Positions 27,453-55,286 of a stretch of DNA of 64,000 bases are shown here, piece by piece. Where the stretch lies: the NCBI RefSeq assembly GCF_026913205.2, contig NZ_CP168151.1, forward strand, positions 124,001-188,000. Direction: 5' to 3'. This stretch comes from Lentilactobacillus sp. SPB1-3 (GTDB lineage: Bacteria > Bacillota > Bacilli > Lactobacillales > Lactobacillaceae). How positions within the stretch are numbered: the first letter of the stretch is position 1; each line of letters opens with the position of its first letter. Both the position numbers and the translations under genes were made by a program. The notes under the pieces are model-generated. The model was not told the origin of the DNA. It saw nothing but the letters and a program-made list of their open reading frames with translations, and did not search any database.

Positions 27453-28376
27453 ATGACAAGAAAAATCGGAGTAATCGGTATGGGTAATGTTGGCTCTACA
27501 GTTGCTCATTACTTGGTATCATCGGGATCAACAGATGATTTAGTTTTAATTGATACAAATGACAAGAAGGTTCAAGCTGATGCAATTGATTTTGAAGATG
27601 CACTAGCGAACCTGCCTGCCCACACGAATATTACGATAAATGATTATTCCGCATTAAGTGATGCAGATATAGTAATTTCTGCGTTAGGACAAATTAGACT
27701 TCAGGATAATGCAGGCGATGATCGTTTTGCTGAACTACCATTCACCAGTGGTCAGGTCAAAGATGTAGCTCAAAAAATTAAAGCATCTGGGTTCCATGGA
27801 GTGATTATCGCGATTACTAATCCGGTGGATGTCATTACTTCAATTTACCAAGAAGTTACCGGACTACCAAAGAATCAGGTGATTGGTACGGGGACGTTAC
27901 TTGATTCTGCTAGAATGAAACGGGCCGTCGCTAAGGGATTAGACATTGATCCACGGTCTGTTACGGGTTATAACCTAGGGGAACATGGAAATTCTCAGTT
28001 TACAGCATGGTCAACGGTCCGTGCGTTGGGTAGACCTGTTACTGACATTGCGAACGAACGTGGTTTAGATCTTGATGAAATTGACCATGAAGCTCGCATT
28101 GGTGGTTATGTTGTCTTTCGTGGCAAAGGATATACTAATTATGGTGTAGCTACTGCCGCGGTCCGGTTAGCAAACGTAGTTTTGAATGACGCTCATGAGG
28201 AATTACCAGTTTCCAATTATCGTGAGGAGTTAGGAACCTATTTATCATATCCGGCAATTGTTGGCCGCAACGGGATTGTGGAACAATTACAGCTTAAGTT
28301 AACTGATGAAGAATTAGCGAAGTTGCAAACTTCTGCTGACTTTATCAAAACTAAGTTTGCCGAATCAATGCAGTAA
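27453..28376 (+). CDS. L-2-hydroxyisocaproate dehydrogenase
   Basis: A 307-residue enzyme of the lactate/malate dehydrogenase family. NAD loop [17 protein letters not shown] at the N-terminus; catalytic His in [14 protein letters not shown] (about 178); substrate Arg in [14 protein letters not shown]-type loop (about 85-95). The loop is longer and less LDH-like, as in L-HicDH enzymes, which reduce branched-chain and aromatic 2-oxo acids to L-2-hydroxy acids. It lies directly before an aminotransferase and a D-hydroxyacid dehydrogenase, fitting amino acid transamination products. No terminator separates it from the aromatic leader 35 bases downstream. Confidence 0.85.
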
Positions 28377-28410
28377 GATGCAGTTAATTTATTCTAAGGA
28401 GTTTTGAATT

Positions 28411-28497
28411 ATGAACGAACAAAAACAAACTCAATTGAATAATTATTTATACTTTTGGTTTTTCAGAAATGATCTGTTAGCCAGAAGTATTTCTTGA
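28411..28497 (+). CDS. Candidate aromatic leader peptide (28 residues, YLYFWFF motif)
   Basis: A 28-codon ORF with SD AAGGAG nine bases before ATG. Residues 12-18 read Y-L-Y-F-W-F-F, so six of seven are aromatic and include Tyr, Trp and Phe. It ends in TGA 13 bases before a strong hairpin of the attenuator. It lies immediately before an aromatic-type aminotransferase. The peptide is polar elsewhere (MNEQKQTQLNN). A role as sensor of aromatic aminoacyl-tRNA is inferred from its composition and place. Confidence 0.75.
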   Translation: MNEQKQTQLNNYLYFWFFRNDLLARSIS

Positions 28498-28509
28498 TGG
28501 AATCGATGG

Positions 28510-28604
28510 CCACGCAGATCACGGGATGACTGCGTGGGATATATTTAAGCCAAGATAAAGCTTATCAAGCCCTAGCAGTCAATTAAGATTGCTAGGGCTT
28601 TTTT
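28510..28604 (+). promoter_or_regulatory. Transcription attenuator before the aminotransferase
   Basis: Three helices with shared arms are visible. Helix 1:2 is CCACGCAG (28510-28517) with CTGCGTGG (28530-28537). The antiterminator is GACTGCGTGGG (28528-28538) with CCCTAGCAGTC (28570-28580), nine pairs with two mismatches. The terminator is AGCCCTAGCA (28568-28577) with TGCTAGGGCT (28590-28599) and T6. This is the 1:2, 2:3, 3:4 order of classical trp-type attenuators. Confidence 0.8.
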
Positions 28605-28620
28605 GGAAGGAGAAATTGAT

Positions 28621-29793
28621 ATGAGTAAAGAATTAGTAGCAAAAATGAATCGTCAGGTAACGCAACTAAAACCATCTTCAATTCTGGAATTCAACAAACA
28701 AATTTCAAAAATTGAAGGTATTATCAAATTAACTTTGGGAGAACCAGACTTTAATACGCCTGAACACATTAAACAAGCAGCGATTAACGCCATAACTGAC
28801 AATGACAGTCACTACACTGATTCACATGGAATAATTGAGCTCCGAGAGGCGGCCGCAAATTACATGAACGAAAAGTACGACTTGAATTACGATCCTGCCT
28901 CTGAGGTATTAATTACCGCTGGGGCTACTGGTTCAATTTACTCATCGCTCACAGCCATTCTAAATCCTGGGGATTCAGTAATTATTCCAACGCCAATATT
29001 CCCATTTTACATTCCAATTACCCAGTTAAACGGCGCTAAACCAATATTTATTGATACTTCTGATGATGGCTTCATATTATCTCCTGAAAAATTAGCCGAA
29101 ACAATTGAAGCTAATCGAGACACCGTTAAAGCGGTGATTTTGAATTACCCAACTAATCCAACCGGAGTAACTTATGAGCGAGAGGATCTCGAGAAAATCG
29201 CTGATGTGCTGAAGCGTTACGATATTTTTGTGATTAGTGATGAGATATACAGTGAACTGACATACGAAAAACAGCATGTTTCAATGGGGACAATATTGCC
29301 AGAACAGGCTTTGGTAATTAATGGTGTTTCAAAATCTCATGCAATGACCGGTTGGCGGATTGGAGTTGTTTGTGGTCCAGCTGACATCCTTGCAGAAGTT
29401 GGTAAAGTAAGTGAATTTACTGTAACTTCTGAAACCACTAACGCTCAACGGGCAGCTGTTGAAGCATTCACGAATGGTATGAATGATGCGATTCCAATGA
29501 AAGAAGAATATGCTAAACGTCAACAAATTTTGGTCAAGGGCCTAACTGAAGCTGGTTTTGAATGTCCTAATCCTAAGGGAGCTTTTTACATTTTTGCTAA
29601 AATTCCTGCGGGTATGAATCAAAATAGTGTCGATTTTTGCTATGAACTAGCCGAAAATGCCAAAGTTGCTGTAATTCCTGGAGCAACTTTTGGCCCCGGT
29701 GGGGAAGGTTACGTTCGAATTAGTTATGCAGCTAGTGAGGCGGACTTGCGCGAAGCGGTCAACCGAATTAAAGCATATGCATTAGTAAAATAG
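28621..29793 (+). CDS. araT: PLP-dependent aminotransferase, likely aromatic (AraT-like)
   Basis: 390 residues, class I/II aminotransferase of the PatA/AraT group. LTLGEPDFNTPEHIK near residue 35, NYPTNPTGVTY (about 170) and the PLP lysine in VSKSHAMTGWRIG (about 238), plus Arg in GYVRISYAAS near the C-terminus that binds the substrate carboxylate. Aromatic specificity is not certain from motifs, but the aromatic leader peptide and the adjacent hydroxyacid dehydrogenase favour Phe/Tyr/Trp with 2-oxoglutarate. ATG at 28621 follows AAGGAG; the ORF extends to a TTG 18 bases upstream that falls right after the terminator T-run. The gene name is tentative. Confidence 0.8.
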   Translation: MSKELVAKMNRQVTQLKPSSILEFNKQISKIEGIIKLTLGEPDFNTPEHIKQAAINAITDNDSHYTDSHGIIELREAAANYMNEKYDLNYDPASEVLITAGATGSIYSSLTAILNPGDSVIIPTPIFPFYIPITQLNGAKPIFIDTSDDGFILSPEKLAETIEANRDTVKAVILNYPTNPTGVTYEREDLEKIADVLKRYDIFVISDEIYSELTYEKQHVSMGTILPEQALVINGVSKSHAMTGWRIGVVCGPADILAEVGKVSEFTVTSETTNAQRAAVEAFTNGMNDAIPMKEEYAKRQQILVKGLTEAGFECPNPKGAFYIFAKIPAGMNQNSVDFCYELAENAKVAVIPGATFGPGGEGYVRISYAASEADLREAVNRIKAYALVK

Positions 29794-29806: not shown

Positions 29807-30793
29807 ATGAAAATTCTAATGTATAACGTTAGGCAAGATGAAGAACAAGATATTAAAAATTATCAAGCAAAACATGATGTTGAAATCTCAACAAATAATG
29901 TTCCTCTCAGCGATAAGACAGTTGCGCTGGCGGCAGGTTACGATGGTATTATCACCCAGCAACATGGCTCGCTCGGATCAGAAAAGGTTTATGAAAAGCT
30001 TCATTCATTTGGAATTAAACAGATTGGTTTAAGAATTACAGGATATGAAATTGTTGATTTAGATGCAGCAAGAAAAAATGATCTTGTAGTTACTAATGTT
30101 CCTGCATACTCTCCCCGTTCAGTTAGTGAGTTGGTATTGGCCCATACGATGTGGTTGGTTCGGCATATGGGAATCTTGACCGCTCGAGAAAGTCATGGCA
30201 ACTTTAGTTGGAATGGCATTGAATCTGGTGAAATTCATGATATGACAATTGGCATTATTGGTGCAGGTAAGATTGGCAGTGCGGTTGCCCGAATTTTCAG
30301 AGCGCTTGGAGCAACTGTGATTGCTGCTGATCCAGTTAAAAGACCGGAGTTAAATGACACACTCACATATGTTGATCACGAAACGGTCTTTAAGACATCA
30401 GATATTATTACGATGCACACGCCATTGACTAGTGAAACCCATCATATGATTGATGAAACTTTTTTTAGACAAATGAAATCAAGTGCATTTTTTATCAATG
30501 CATCGAGAGGACCAGTCGTAAAAACTGAAGACTTAGTTTCTGCTTTAGAAAATCGTGAGATTGCCGGTGCGGCCATCGATACTTATGAAGGAGAAAGCGC
30601 CACAGTTGGCAAAAATTTAGATAGTAAAGTTCTGGACAAAAATCTTCAAAAATTGTTGGCAATGCCAAATGTGAATGTCAGTCCTCACGTTGGTTTTTAT
30701 ACTGATGTTGCAGTTAAGAATATGATTGAGATAGCGTTGAACGATACAATTGATATTTTAAATGACGCTGGAAGCCTGCATATCGTTAGCTGA
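29807..30793 (+). CDS. D-2-hydroxyacid dehydrogenase
   Basis: A 328-residue NAD-dependent enzyme of the D-LDH/D-HicDH group. TIGIIGAGKIGSAVARIFRALG (about 145-165) is the NAD fold; catalytic Arg is in FINASRGPVV (about 232), and Glu and His are in the C-terminal third, with NVSPHVGFYTD holding the His. The related D-HicDH reduces 2-oxo acids such as phenylpyruvate. It begins 14 bases after the aminotransferase with GGGAG, so the pair probably turns aromatic amino acids into aryl-lactates. That pathway is an inference from context. Confidence 0.85.
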   Translation: MKILMYNVRQDEEQDIKNYQAKHDVEISTNNVPLSDKTVALAAGYDGIITQQHGSLGSEKVYEKLHSFGIKQIGLRITGYEIVDLDAARKNDLVVTNVPAYSPRSVSELVLAHTMWLVRHMGILTARESHGNFSWNGIESGEIHDMTIGIIGAGKIGSAVARIFRALGATVIAADPVKRPELNDTLTYVDHETVFKTSDIITMHTPLTSETHHMIDETFFRQMKSSAFFINASRGPVVKTEDLVSALENREIAGAAIDTYEGESATVGKNLDSKVLDKNLQKLLAMPNVNVSPHVGFYTDVAVKNMIEIALNDTIDILNDAGSLHIVS

Positions 30794-55028: not shown

Positions 55029-55050
55029 TGTTTGCGAAAACTGAATAGAT

Positions 55051-55286
55051 TTCTTCGGGGCAGGGTGAAATTCCCGACCGACGGTGACAATTTACGAATT
55101 GAAGTCCGTGACCCGCATATATTTGCGGTTGACCCAGTGTGATTCTGGGACCGACAGTACAGTCTGGATGGGAGAAGAAAATGCTAATATTTCGTACCGT
55201 CAACAGCTGATTAGCTGTGCTCGGTTGAAGTCTTTTTTAGCTTGATAAAATTCCTGGCCCTGCAATTTTTTGCAGGGCCTTTTTTA
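55051..55286 (+). promoter_or_regulatory. FMN riboswitch (RFN element) with terminator
   Basis: The aptamer runs from TTCTTCGGGGCAGGGTGAAA (55051) through CCCGACCGACGGTGAC, GTCCGTGACCCG and GGACCGACAGTACAGTCTGG to GGGAGAAGAA (55180), matching all conserved RFN parts with P1 closed by TTCTTC/GAAGAA. The expression platform ends with GGCCCTGCA / TGCAGGGCC and T6 at 55256-55286. FMN should switch off the rib operon. Confidence 0.95.

Follow-up and report, generated by a model that had tools for sequence, protein, structure and literature searches.

The window, by which we mean the whole 64,000-nucleotide stretch of DNA analysed here, is part of the 1.93-Mb genome of a Lentilactobacillus (G000:C1:124001-188000). 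The leader under study lies between a gene of the lactate/malate dehydrogenase family, its 5' neighbour (27453-28376; Pfam Ldh_1), and two genes on the + strand that we take it to control. The first encodes a class I/II aminotransferase (28621-29793; PF00155) that is AraT-like: it scores 561 bits against NF005588, under that model's cut-off of 576, its top PDB sequence match is 4my5, and it is 94% identical in the best segment to its counterpart in Lentilactobacillus kosonis (L031). The second (29807-30793; PF00389/PF02826) belongs to the D-2-hydroxyacid dehydrogenase / D-lactate dehydrogenase family; its NF006374 score is under the cut-off, and its top PDB sequence match is 4xkj. The genome also has a prephenate-dehydrogenase-family gene and a DAHP synthase, and a search of it for prephenate dehydratase (PF00800) found none. 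We located no promoter near the leader, where 3 matches were seen and 4.8 were expected. Far downstream, at 55047-55183 (+), the window holds an FMN riboswitch (RF00050, 121.5 bits). In L. kosonis (L031/L144) the araT gene matched as two overlapping pieces, which could be due to a frameshift or a sequencing error. By eye, some other Lentilactobacillus loci (L012, L014, L017, L018) carry one to several imperfect repeats of about 130 bases, rich in inverted repeats, between terminator and araT.

The leader ORF (28411-28497, +) starts 34 bases downstream of the stop of the dehydrogenase-family gene. As the original prediction had it, this is a 28-codon frame with an AAGGAG Shine-Dalgarno sequence (28396-28401, +), in a region that aligns among relatives, and it encodes the peptide MNEQKQTQLNNYLYFWFFRNDLLARSIS. 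The frame in the window runs beyond the usual stop of most relatives. Within it lie the putative stall codons TAT TTA TAC TTT TGG TTT TTC (28444-28464, +), read as Y-L-Y-F-W-F-F and present in relatives too. The three predicted hairpins that follow are likewise all in place: CCACGCAG (28510-28517) pairs with CTGCGTGG (28530-28537), GACTGCGTGGG (28528-28538) with CCCTAGCAGTC (28570-28580), and, in the terminator, AGCCCTAGCA (28568-28577) with TGCTAGGGCT (28590-28599), followed by T6 (28599-28604).

Folding of 28395-28615 gave -67.7 kcal/mol, compared with -43.9 (sd 3.8) for dinucleotide shuffles, none of which (0 of 200) did as well (z -6.3). This fold also pairs the aromatic codons at 28449-28460 with 28479-28490, a helix overlooked in the earlier reading. 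With it and one further pairing, the leader divides into six segments, which we number 0 to 5, and all of the helices lie on the + strand. Helix 0:1 (span 28449-28490) is the one just described. Helix 1:2 (span 28470-28521) joins 28470-28477 with 28514-28521 and 28480-28482 with 28508-28510. The hairpin that the earlier reading counted as its first becomes helix 2:3 (span 28510-28537), in which 28519-28521 also pairs with 28527-28529; its middle hairpin becomes helix 3:4 (span 28527-28581), a putative antiterminator pairing 28527-28533 with 28575-28581 and 28536-28538 with 28570-28572; and helix 4:5 (span 28568-28604) has the form of an intrinsic terminator. In the arrangement that the sequences point to, helices 0:1, 2:3 and 4:5 make up the OFF state and 1:2 and 3:4 the ON state. 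The hairpins of the original prediction thus stand, and its trp-type order of 1:2, 2:3 and 3:4 gives way to a six-segment, his-type relay with two pairings it had overlooked.

To place the leader among its relatives we began from the aminotransferase. A first search of 100 genomes gave 30 loci and a contig scan added three; of these 33 upstream regions, 26 have a leader, and none was found upstream at the other seven (L021, L025, L027, L028, L030, L032 and L033). Alignment A1 comprises 23 of the 26 araT leaders, the divergent L022, L026 and L029 being left out. The original prediction had named covariation in related lactobacilli as its check, and lack of conservation of the codons or of the alternative pairing as grounds for giving it up; both the aromatic codons and the alternative pairings proved strongly conserved. 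In A1 the share of paired cells is 96.8% for the OFF structure, with double changes at 15 of 35 pairs, and 93.6% for the ON structure, with double changes at 8 of 23, figures that are not probabilities because the rows, like the sequences in the shuffle and swap controls, are related and kinship was ignored. No shuffle (0 of 500) matched the pairing of either state, and sliding the partner by 1-3 columns left 34-51% (OFF) and 26-49% (ON) of cells paired. For helix 1:2, 92.3% and 100% of cells are paired, with both-side changes at 5 of 13 pairs. Given A1 alone as input, RNAalifold returned 0:1, 2:3 and 4:5, with both-side changes at 15 of 33 pairs. Each of the five helices is backed by covariation, joined by RNAalifold for 0:1, 2:3 and 4:5, by the fold and the arm test described below for 0:1, by the folding model for 1:2 and by sequence for 4:5.

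These results bear on a simpler reading, in which the leader is a plain trp-type attenuator with three helices only and 0:1 and 1:2 are incidental. Such attenuators have their stall codons in or next to segment 1 of a 1:2/2:3/3:4 array in which 3:4 is the terminator. Helices 2:3, 3:4 and 4:5 are indeed present and covarying, as this reading would have it. However, the codons end 45 bases before the first of these hairpins (the original prediction put the distance at about 50), with two switching pairings in between, so that a stall on them would be too far upstream to act and would have no evident effect. Helices 0:1 and 1:2 moreover show double changes of their own, and 0:1 was picked by RNAalifold unaided. 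We consider the three-helix reading quite unlikely. The release step, which the original prediction had left in need of explanation, is answered in principle by the six-segment reading, since a stalled ribosome would act on 0:1 and 1:2 and not on 2:3 directly. The his operon attenuator of enterobacteria has six segments, A-F, with A:B, C:D and E:F paired in the OFF state and B:C and D:E in the ON state, and the same pattern is found in the 23-leader alignment. Antiterminator and terminator are mutually exclusive there, both states covary, and the terminator stem is followed by T6.

Helix 0:1 could be followed beyond A1. In 55 of 57 non-redundant aromatic leaders, the 7-base arm ending at the Trp-position codon is fully complementary (G-U allowed) to a stretch 18-115 bases on; with partners swapped in from leaders that have a different arm, full pairing fell to 561 of 1946 (29%). 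The 57 leaders have 12 different arm sequences, and the two failures are L026 and L118. Among the pairs are CTTTTGG:CCAAAAG, CTATTGG:CCAATAG, CTTCTGG:CCAGAAG and CTTTCGG:CCGAGAG, as well as CTTTAGC:GCTAAAG, CTTTTTG:CAAAGAG and CTTTTAT:ATAAGAG. Where TGG is replaced by CGG, AGC, TTG, CGT, GGG or TAT, the partner changes with it in the non-redundant set except in L118, which indicates that the RNA helix, and not the peptide alone, constrains the Trp codon. The 7-residue cluster is without Trp in 13 of 136 aromatic leaders, which have R, S, G, L or Y instead. The original prediction took the mixed Tyr, Phe and Trp codons before the aminotransferase operon to mean a sensor of all three amino acids. 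The mixture is borne out and its codons are conserved in relatives; sensing of Trp is the least certain part, because of these 13 clusters and because RNA pairing is kept in most such non-redundant cases.

The ORF itself is putatively translated. Shine-Dalgarno sequence and reading frame are conserved among relatives, with synonymous third-base variation: the 57 leaders use TTT 128 times and TTC 37 times, and TAT 71 and TAC 55 times. The peptide core is strongly conserved, and leader cores in relatives take forms such as TQLNSCRYYFWFFQI, then TGATCTGTG...AAGCCAAAAG...GGCCGCGCAGATCA...TTGACTGTGCGGG...CAGTCA. Counted from the last aromatic residue, the stop follows at 0-2 codons in 42 of the 57, at 4 codons in 11 and at 7-12 codons in 4, and in many relatives it falls in or near segment 1. 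The leaders of the window and of L. kosonis (L031) are without one base common to most A1 rows (column 30; four other rows are without it too), and their frames stay open across segment 1, the stop coming 12 bases short of hairpin 2:3. Short ORFs are common, and the frame might be a chance one before an ordinary terminator. As a control we took 279 other small ORFs with a Shine-Dalgarno sequence from sequence flanking the loci we examined: not one of them has five or more aromatic residues in 7 codons, compared with 128 of 129 aromatic leaders of the 146-place Lactobacillaceae set, and the best control score, 4 in 7, was reached by 3 of the 279. Conservation refutes the chance reading, whose probability we regard as practically nil.

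We then asked how widely the leader occurs, using a covariance model, R1, whose E-values are rough. At E <=0.01, R1 has matches in 118 of 397 Lactobacillaceae genomes, in 20 of 40 genera, false hits included. We inspected all 146 places in this family and judged 136 to be leaders, in 109 of the 397 genomes. On inspection by eye we set aside the other ten (L116, L121, L126, L127, L193, L195, L196, L197, L201 and L202) as either chance terminators or unclear cases. One of them, L126, a weak R1 match, has a short ORF with a Shine-Dalgarno sequence and hairpins before an amino acid permease gene, without an aromatic cluster, and might be a different attenuator. L144, which has the same leader as L031, was left out of the 143-locus set, and its place is counted among the 146. 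In 295 genomes of the other Lactobacillales families, searched at E 0.001, R1 marked 9 places, of which 7 are leaders, before aroF (4), aroE (2) and araT (1); L141 and L142 were judged chance matches. A phylum-wide sample of 299 genomes gave, besides the window's own genome, only L206, which we rejected as a leader as it looks like a plain terminator. In its own genome R1 yields one convincing locus, the window leader. That genome's aroF (L204; G000:C1:57506-58225, -), a DAHP synthase by Pfam, is preceded by the ORF MQNKSLTIAQAYYFWSR and, by eye and by folding, by hairpins and a terminator-like stem, all missed by R1; our leader counts are therefore lower bounds.

The genes under the leaders are mostly those that the codons would suggest. 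If the first gene is whichever of ten reference proteins is matched first by tblastn, the 136 Lactobacillaceae leaders precede araT (80), tkt (19), PTS_EIIC_2 (11), aroF (10), aroE (7), serC (6), aroC (1) or a dehydrogenase (1), and for one no such gene lies on the sequence available. The leader before the dehydrogenase (L162) is a poor one, AFSFAF, and was counted as 'other'; in L136 and L137 aroF is preceded by a further ORF of about 180 codons. Among 136 aromatic leaders, araT, tkt, aroF, aroE or PTS_EIIC_2 is first downstream in 134, and the remaining two are L200 (aroC) and L146, at a contig end. Composition shifts with the gene: per 7-residue cluster, tkt, aroE and aroF leaders average 2.8-3.2 Tyr and 1.7-2.2 Phe, and araT leaders 1.9 Tyr and 3.2 Phe. 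Six leaders (L073, L074, L075, L119, L198 and L208) have three consecutive Ser codons, TCATCCTCC or AGCTCCTCC, in place of an aromatic cluster, and all six precede serC-serA. In the five of these that were folded, the Ser codons are closely followed by a 0:1-like arm, which pairs as TGGTCTACA with TGTAGGCCA or as variants of these. The codons thus vary with the pathway and the helix that contains them is kept by compensation, which amounts to a natural test of a change in attenuator specificity. The controlled genes match the codon pathway, aromatic or Ser, and for PTS_EIIC_2 the substrate is only suggested. PTS_EIIC_2-like genes come first under 11 of the 136 aromatic leaders (for example L068, L084, L085, L090, L092 and L115), and PTS_EIIC_2-like proteins are present in 17 of the 32 araT loci whose downstream sequence extends for 2.9 kb or more; the assignment is by PF13303 on L077 and L111 and by tblastn to the L077 protein for the others. 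Their place under the same leaders suggests a substrate class, and we regard them as candidate aromatic-compound transporters.

A conserved, structured leader with a terminator could also be translation-independent, a T-box, a riboswitch or the target of an RNA-binding protein, with the ORF a coincidence. The conservation of Shine-Dalgarno sequence and aromatic codons with synonymous variation argues against this, as does the way in which codon type tracks the pathway. Nor does any Rfam leader family match at gathering score: the whole window gives the FMN riboswitch only and no T-box, 20 homologous loci give one rRNA only, and 28300-28700 has only seven sub-threshold matches (E 0.15-9.9). It seems very improbable indeed that the leader works without translation.

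The ORF, its codons, the pairings, their covariation and the tie between codon type and pathway can all be read from the sequences. Taken together with the folding model described below, they make it highly likely, in our judgement, that the leader is a ribosome-mediated six-segment transcription attenuator that is ON in starvation, although we infer that the ORF is translated, that the ribosome stalls and that transcription terminates, and likewise the folding order and the sign of the switch. It very probably switches the aminotransferase gene on when Tyr, Phe and Trp are scarce, and the original prediction of an attenuator for this operon is supported by the conserved codons and alternative pairings. 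With ample aromatic aminoacyl-tRNA, the leading ribosome would pass the aromatic codons and cover segment 1; segment 2 would then pair with 3 and 4 with 5, and RNA polymerase would terminate near 28604. When Tyr, Phe or Trp runs short, the ribosome would stall on the codons of segment 0, blocking 0:1 and leaving segment 1 exposed ahead of it. Helix 1:2 would then form, 3 would pair with 4, no terminator would arise, and araT and the hydroxyacid dehydrogenase gene would be transcribed. With no ribosome on the leader, 0:1 is expected to form first and to hold the switch OFF.

We modelled this geometry by folding the 23 leaders with a ribosome footprint. Its customary limits, counted from the first base of the codon in the A site, are 18 bases on the 5' side and 10, 12 or 14 bases on the 3' side. 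When the transcript stopped at segment 2, helix 1:2 reached at least 0.5 in 23 of 23 leaders for every A-site position between two codons before and two codons after the first F of FWFF, except that at the last of these positions the longest footprint gave 22 of 23. For an A site on the last Phe the count was 23, 17 or 0 of 23 for downstream reaches of 10, 12 and 14, and one codon further on it was 0 of 23. With the ribosome at the stop it was 2 of 23, the window being one of the two: its frame ends only at a distal stop beyond segment 1, and 1:2 then stays free in the model. With the A site upstream of the cluster it was 17-23 of 23 (17-21 for codons -10 to -3 at edge +12), and without a ribosome 18 of 23. 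Only on its 3' side, then, does the stall position have a sharp boundary. For transcripts that run to the end of segment 3, helix 2:3 formed in 22 of 23 leaders with the ribosome at the stop and in 22 of 23 without one; when the ribosome stalled at the Trp position, 1:2 reached at least 0.5 in 13 of 23 (two of them at 0.50), and when five cluster codons were averaged, in 4 of 23. Once the transcript also contained segment 4, helix 3:4 formed in 22 of 23 for the Trp-position stall, L024, a poor fit to the model, being the one that fails. Here 3:4 also won in 15 of 23 leaders when no ribosome was present and in 8 of 23 when one stood at the stop, the window in both cases.

In the model, then, the geometry fits a switch that is ON in starvation, and folding at equilibrium is not enough by itself to ensure the OFF state. 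With no clean OFF at equilibrium, each helix must be trapped in the order of its synthesis, which would be 0:1 before 1:2, 1:2 before 2:3 and 2:3 before 3:4. Several aro-type and some araT leaders (L106, L095, L026) have an extra hairpin from the leader stop codon, in L095 GTGTTTGCA with TGCAAACAC. This is possibly a further relay step.

The sign could in principle be the opposite, with an aromatic amino acid or the nascent YYFWFF arresting the ribosome near the stop, as in TnaC, so that excess would turn a catabolic operon ON. The araT and hydroxyacid dehydrogenase genes could be catabolic, which we would tie to phenyllactate formation, and the strong conservation of the peptide core would suit an arrest peptide. 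TnaC-type arrest peptides have invariant arrest residues that include Trp, whereas 13 of 136 leaders here are without Trp in the cluster. The 2 of 23 models in which 1:2 reached 0.5 with the ribosome at the stop mean that this position is, for most leaders, OFF, and the same leader class precedes the biosynthetic aroF, aroE, aroC and tkt, with its Ser version before serC-serA. We give the opposite sign little probability.

A weaker helix in the window leader may hide its own Shine-Dalgarno sequence. It would pair 28389-28394 and 28399-28404 with 28427-28432 and 28437-28442 (+; span 28389-28442), that is, the Shine-Dalgarno region with the TQLN codons. For the window alone, 11 of 200 shuffles were as good; in a partner-swap on 57 related leaders the mean was -7.5 compared with -6.0 kcal/mol, with 0 of 10000 permutations reaching it. 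L024 retains QLN without the Shine-Dalgarno pairing, and in the aroF and tkt leaders displayed the pairing is mostly weak. In five Ser leaders the sequence GGAGG could, by eye, pair with the Ser codons.

What the analysis supports most directly is a conserved six-segment aromatic attenuator whose sign and response we infer, and one scaffold that recurs in at least 109 of 397 Lactobacillaceae genomes. It is tempting to go further and see an order-wide, six-segment family with interchangeable codons as a main sensor of aromatic and serine starvation in Lactobacillales, replacing T-boxes, bringing the shikimate genes, the pair of AraT and D-hydroxyacid dehydrogenase, and PTS_EIIC_2 under common control, and hiding its own Shine-Dalgarno sequence so that only the first ribosome reads it. 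We hold this wider view tentatively, at somewhat less than an even chance. If it is true, the PTS_EIIC_2 proteins would be aromatic-compound transporters, and the Shine-Dalgarno sequence would be hidden by codons just upstream of the stall site. The attenuator by itself, apart from this wider view, would lead us to expect added Phe or Tyr to lower aminotransferase expression in phenyllactate-making lactobacilli.

Amino-acid control in Firmicutes is usually credited to T-boxes, and aromatic regulation in low-GC Gram-positives was reportedly treated by Panina et al. in 2003. In the trp and pheA/pheST leaders of Proteobacteria, ribosomes stall on aromatic codons; these leaders have four segments and runs of one residue. 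They share with ours the link from aromatic codons to aromatic genes, whereas here there are six segments and Y, F and W are mixed. In the open-access PMC literature we found no earlier description of an aromatic or Ser leader element of this kind. Regular leader peptides are treated as exceptional in Firmicutes in the relevant parts of two papers (PMC2965389, PMC3766115), the second of which counts 291 T-boxes in 15 Lactobacillaceae genomes. Staphylococcus aureus ilv-leu has a leucine-rich attenuator peptide, and leaders of branched-chain genes have been predicted in Lactococcus lactis and Streptococcus, also Lactobacillales, according to the sections cited (PMC5794164); the S. aureus case is, like ours, a leader-peptide attenuator in a Firmicute, but its codons are Leu/Ile and its operon is a different one. 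Candidate His leader attenuators are listed for the B. cereus group, Peptostreptococcaceae and relatives, and Erysipelotrichales in a source whose pertinent passages name T-boxes as the commonest control of his genes in Lactobacillales (PMC9413887), and a His leader peptide precedes hisS/hisZ paralogues of bacilli in the corresponding part of another (PMC2965389). As far as these passages go, they are regular leader peptides like ours but His-specific. The uORFC-13-1 motif of Acholeplasma aroF comes with a uORF that has one or more Phe codons and a terminator; the portion of the paper describing it gives 24 representatives, from Acholeplasma and environmental sequences, whose U-run codes for at least one Phe, and, unlike for the window leader, contains no six-segment relay (PMC8632094). 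A T-box achieves antitermination in amino-acid starvation as proposed here, with the difference that the signal we propose is the ribosome and not tRNA binding. By its anatomy, as read from the sequence, the window leader is a leader-peptide attenuator of his topology: like the his attenuator it has a leader ORF with cognate codons, three OFF and two ON hairpins and the form of an intrinsic terminator. It differs in having no Rfam match, in mixing three aromatic residues, in occurring in Lactobacillales and in standing, with its relatives, before aminotransferase, shikimate and serine genes.
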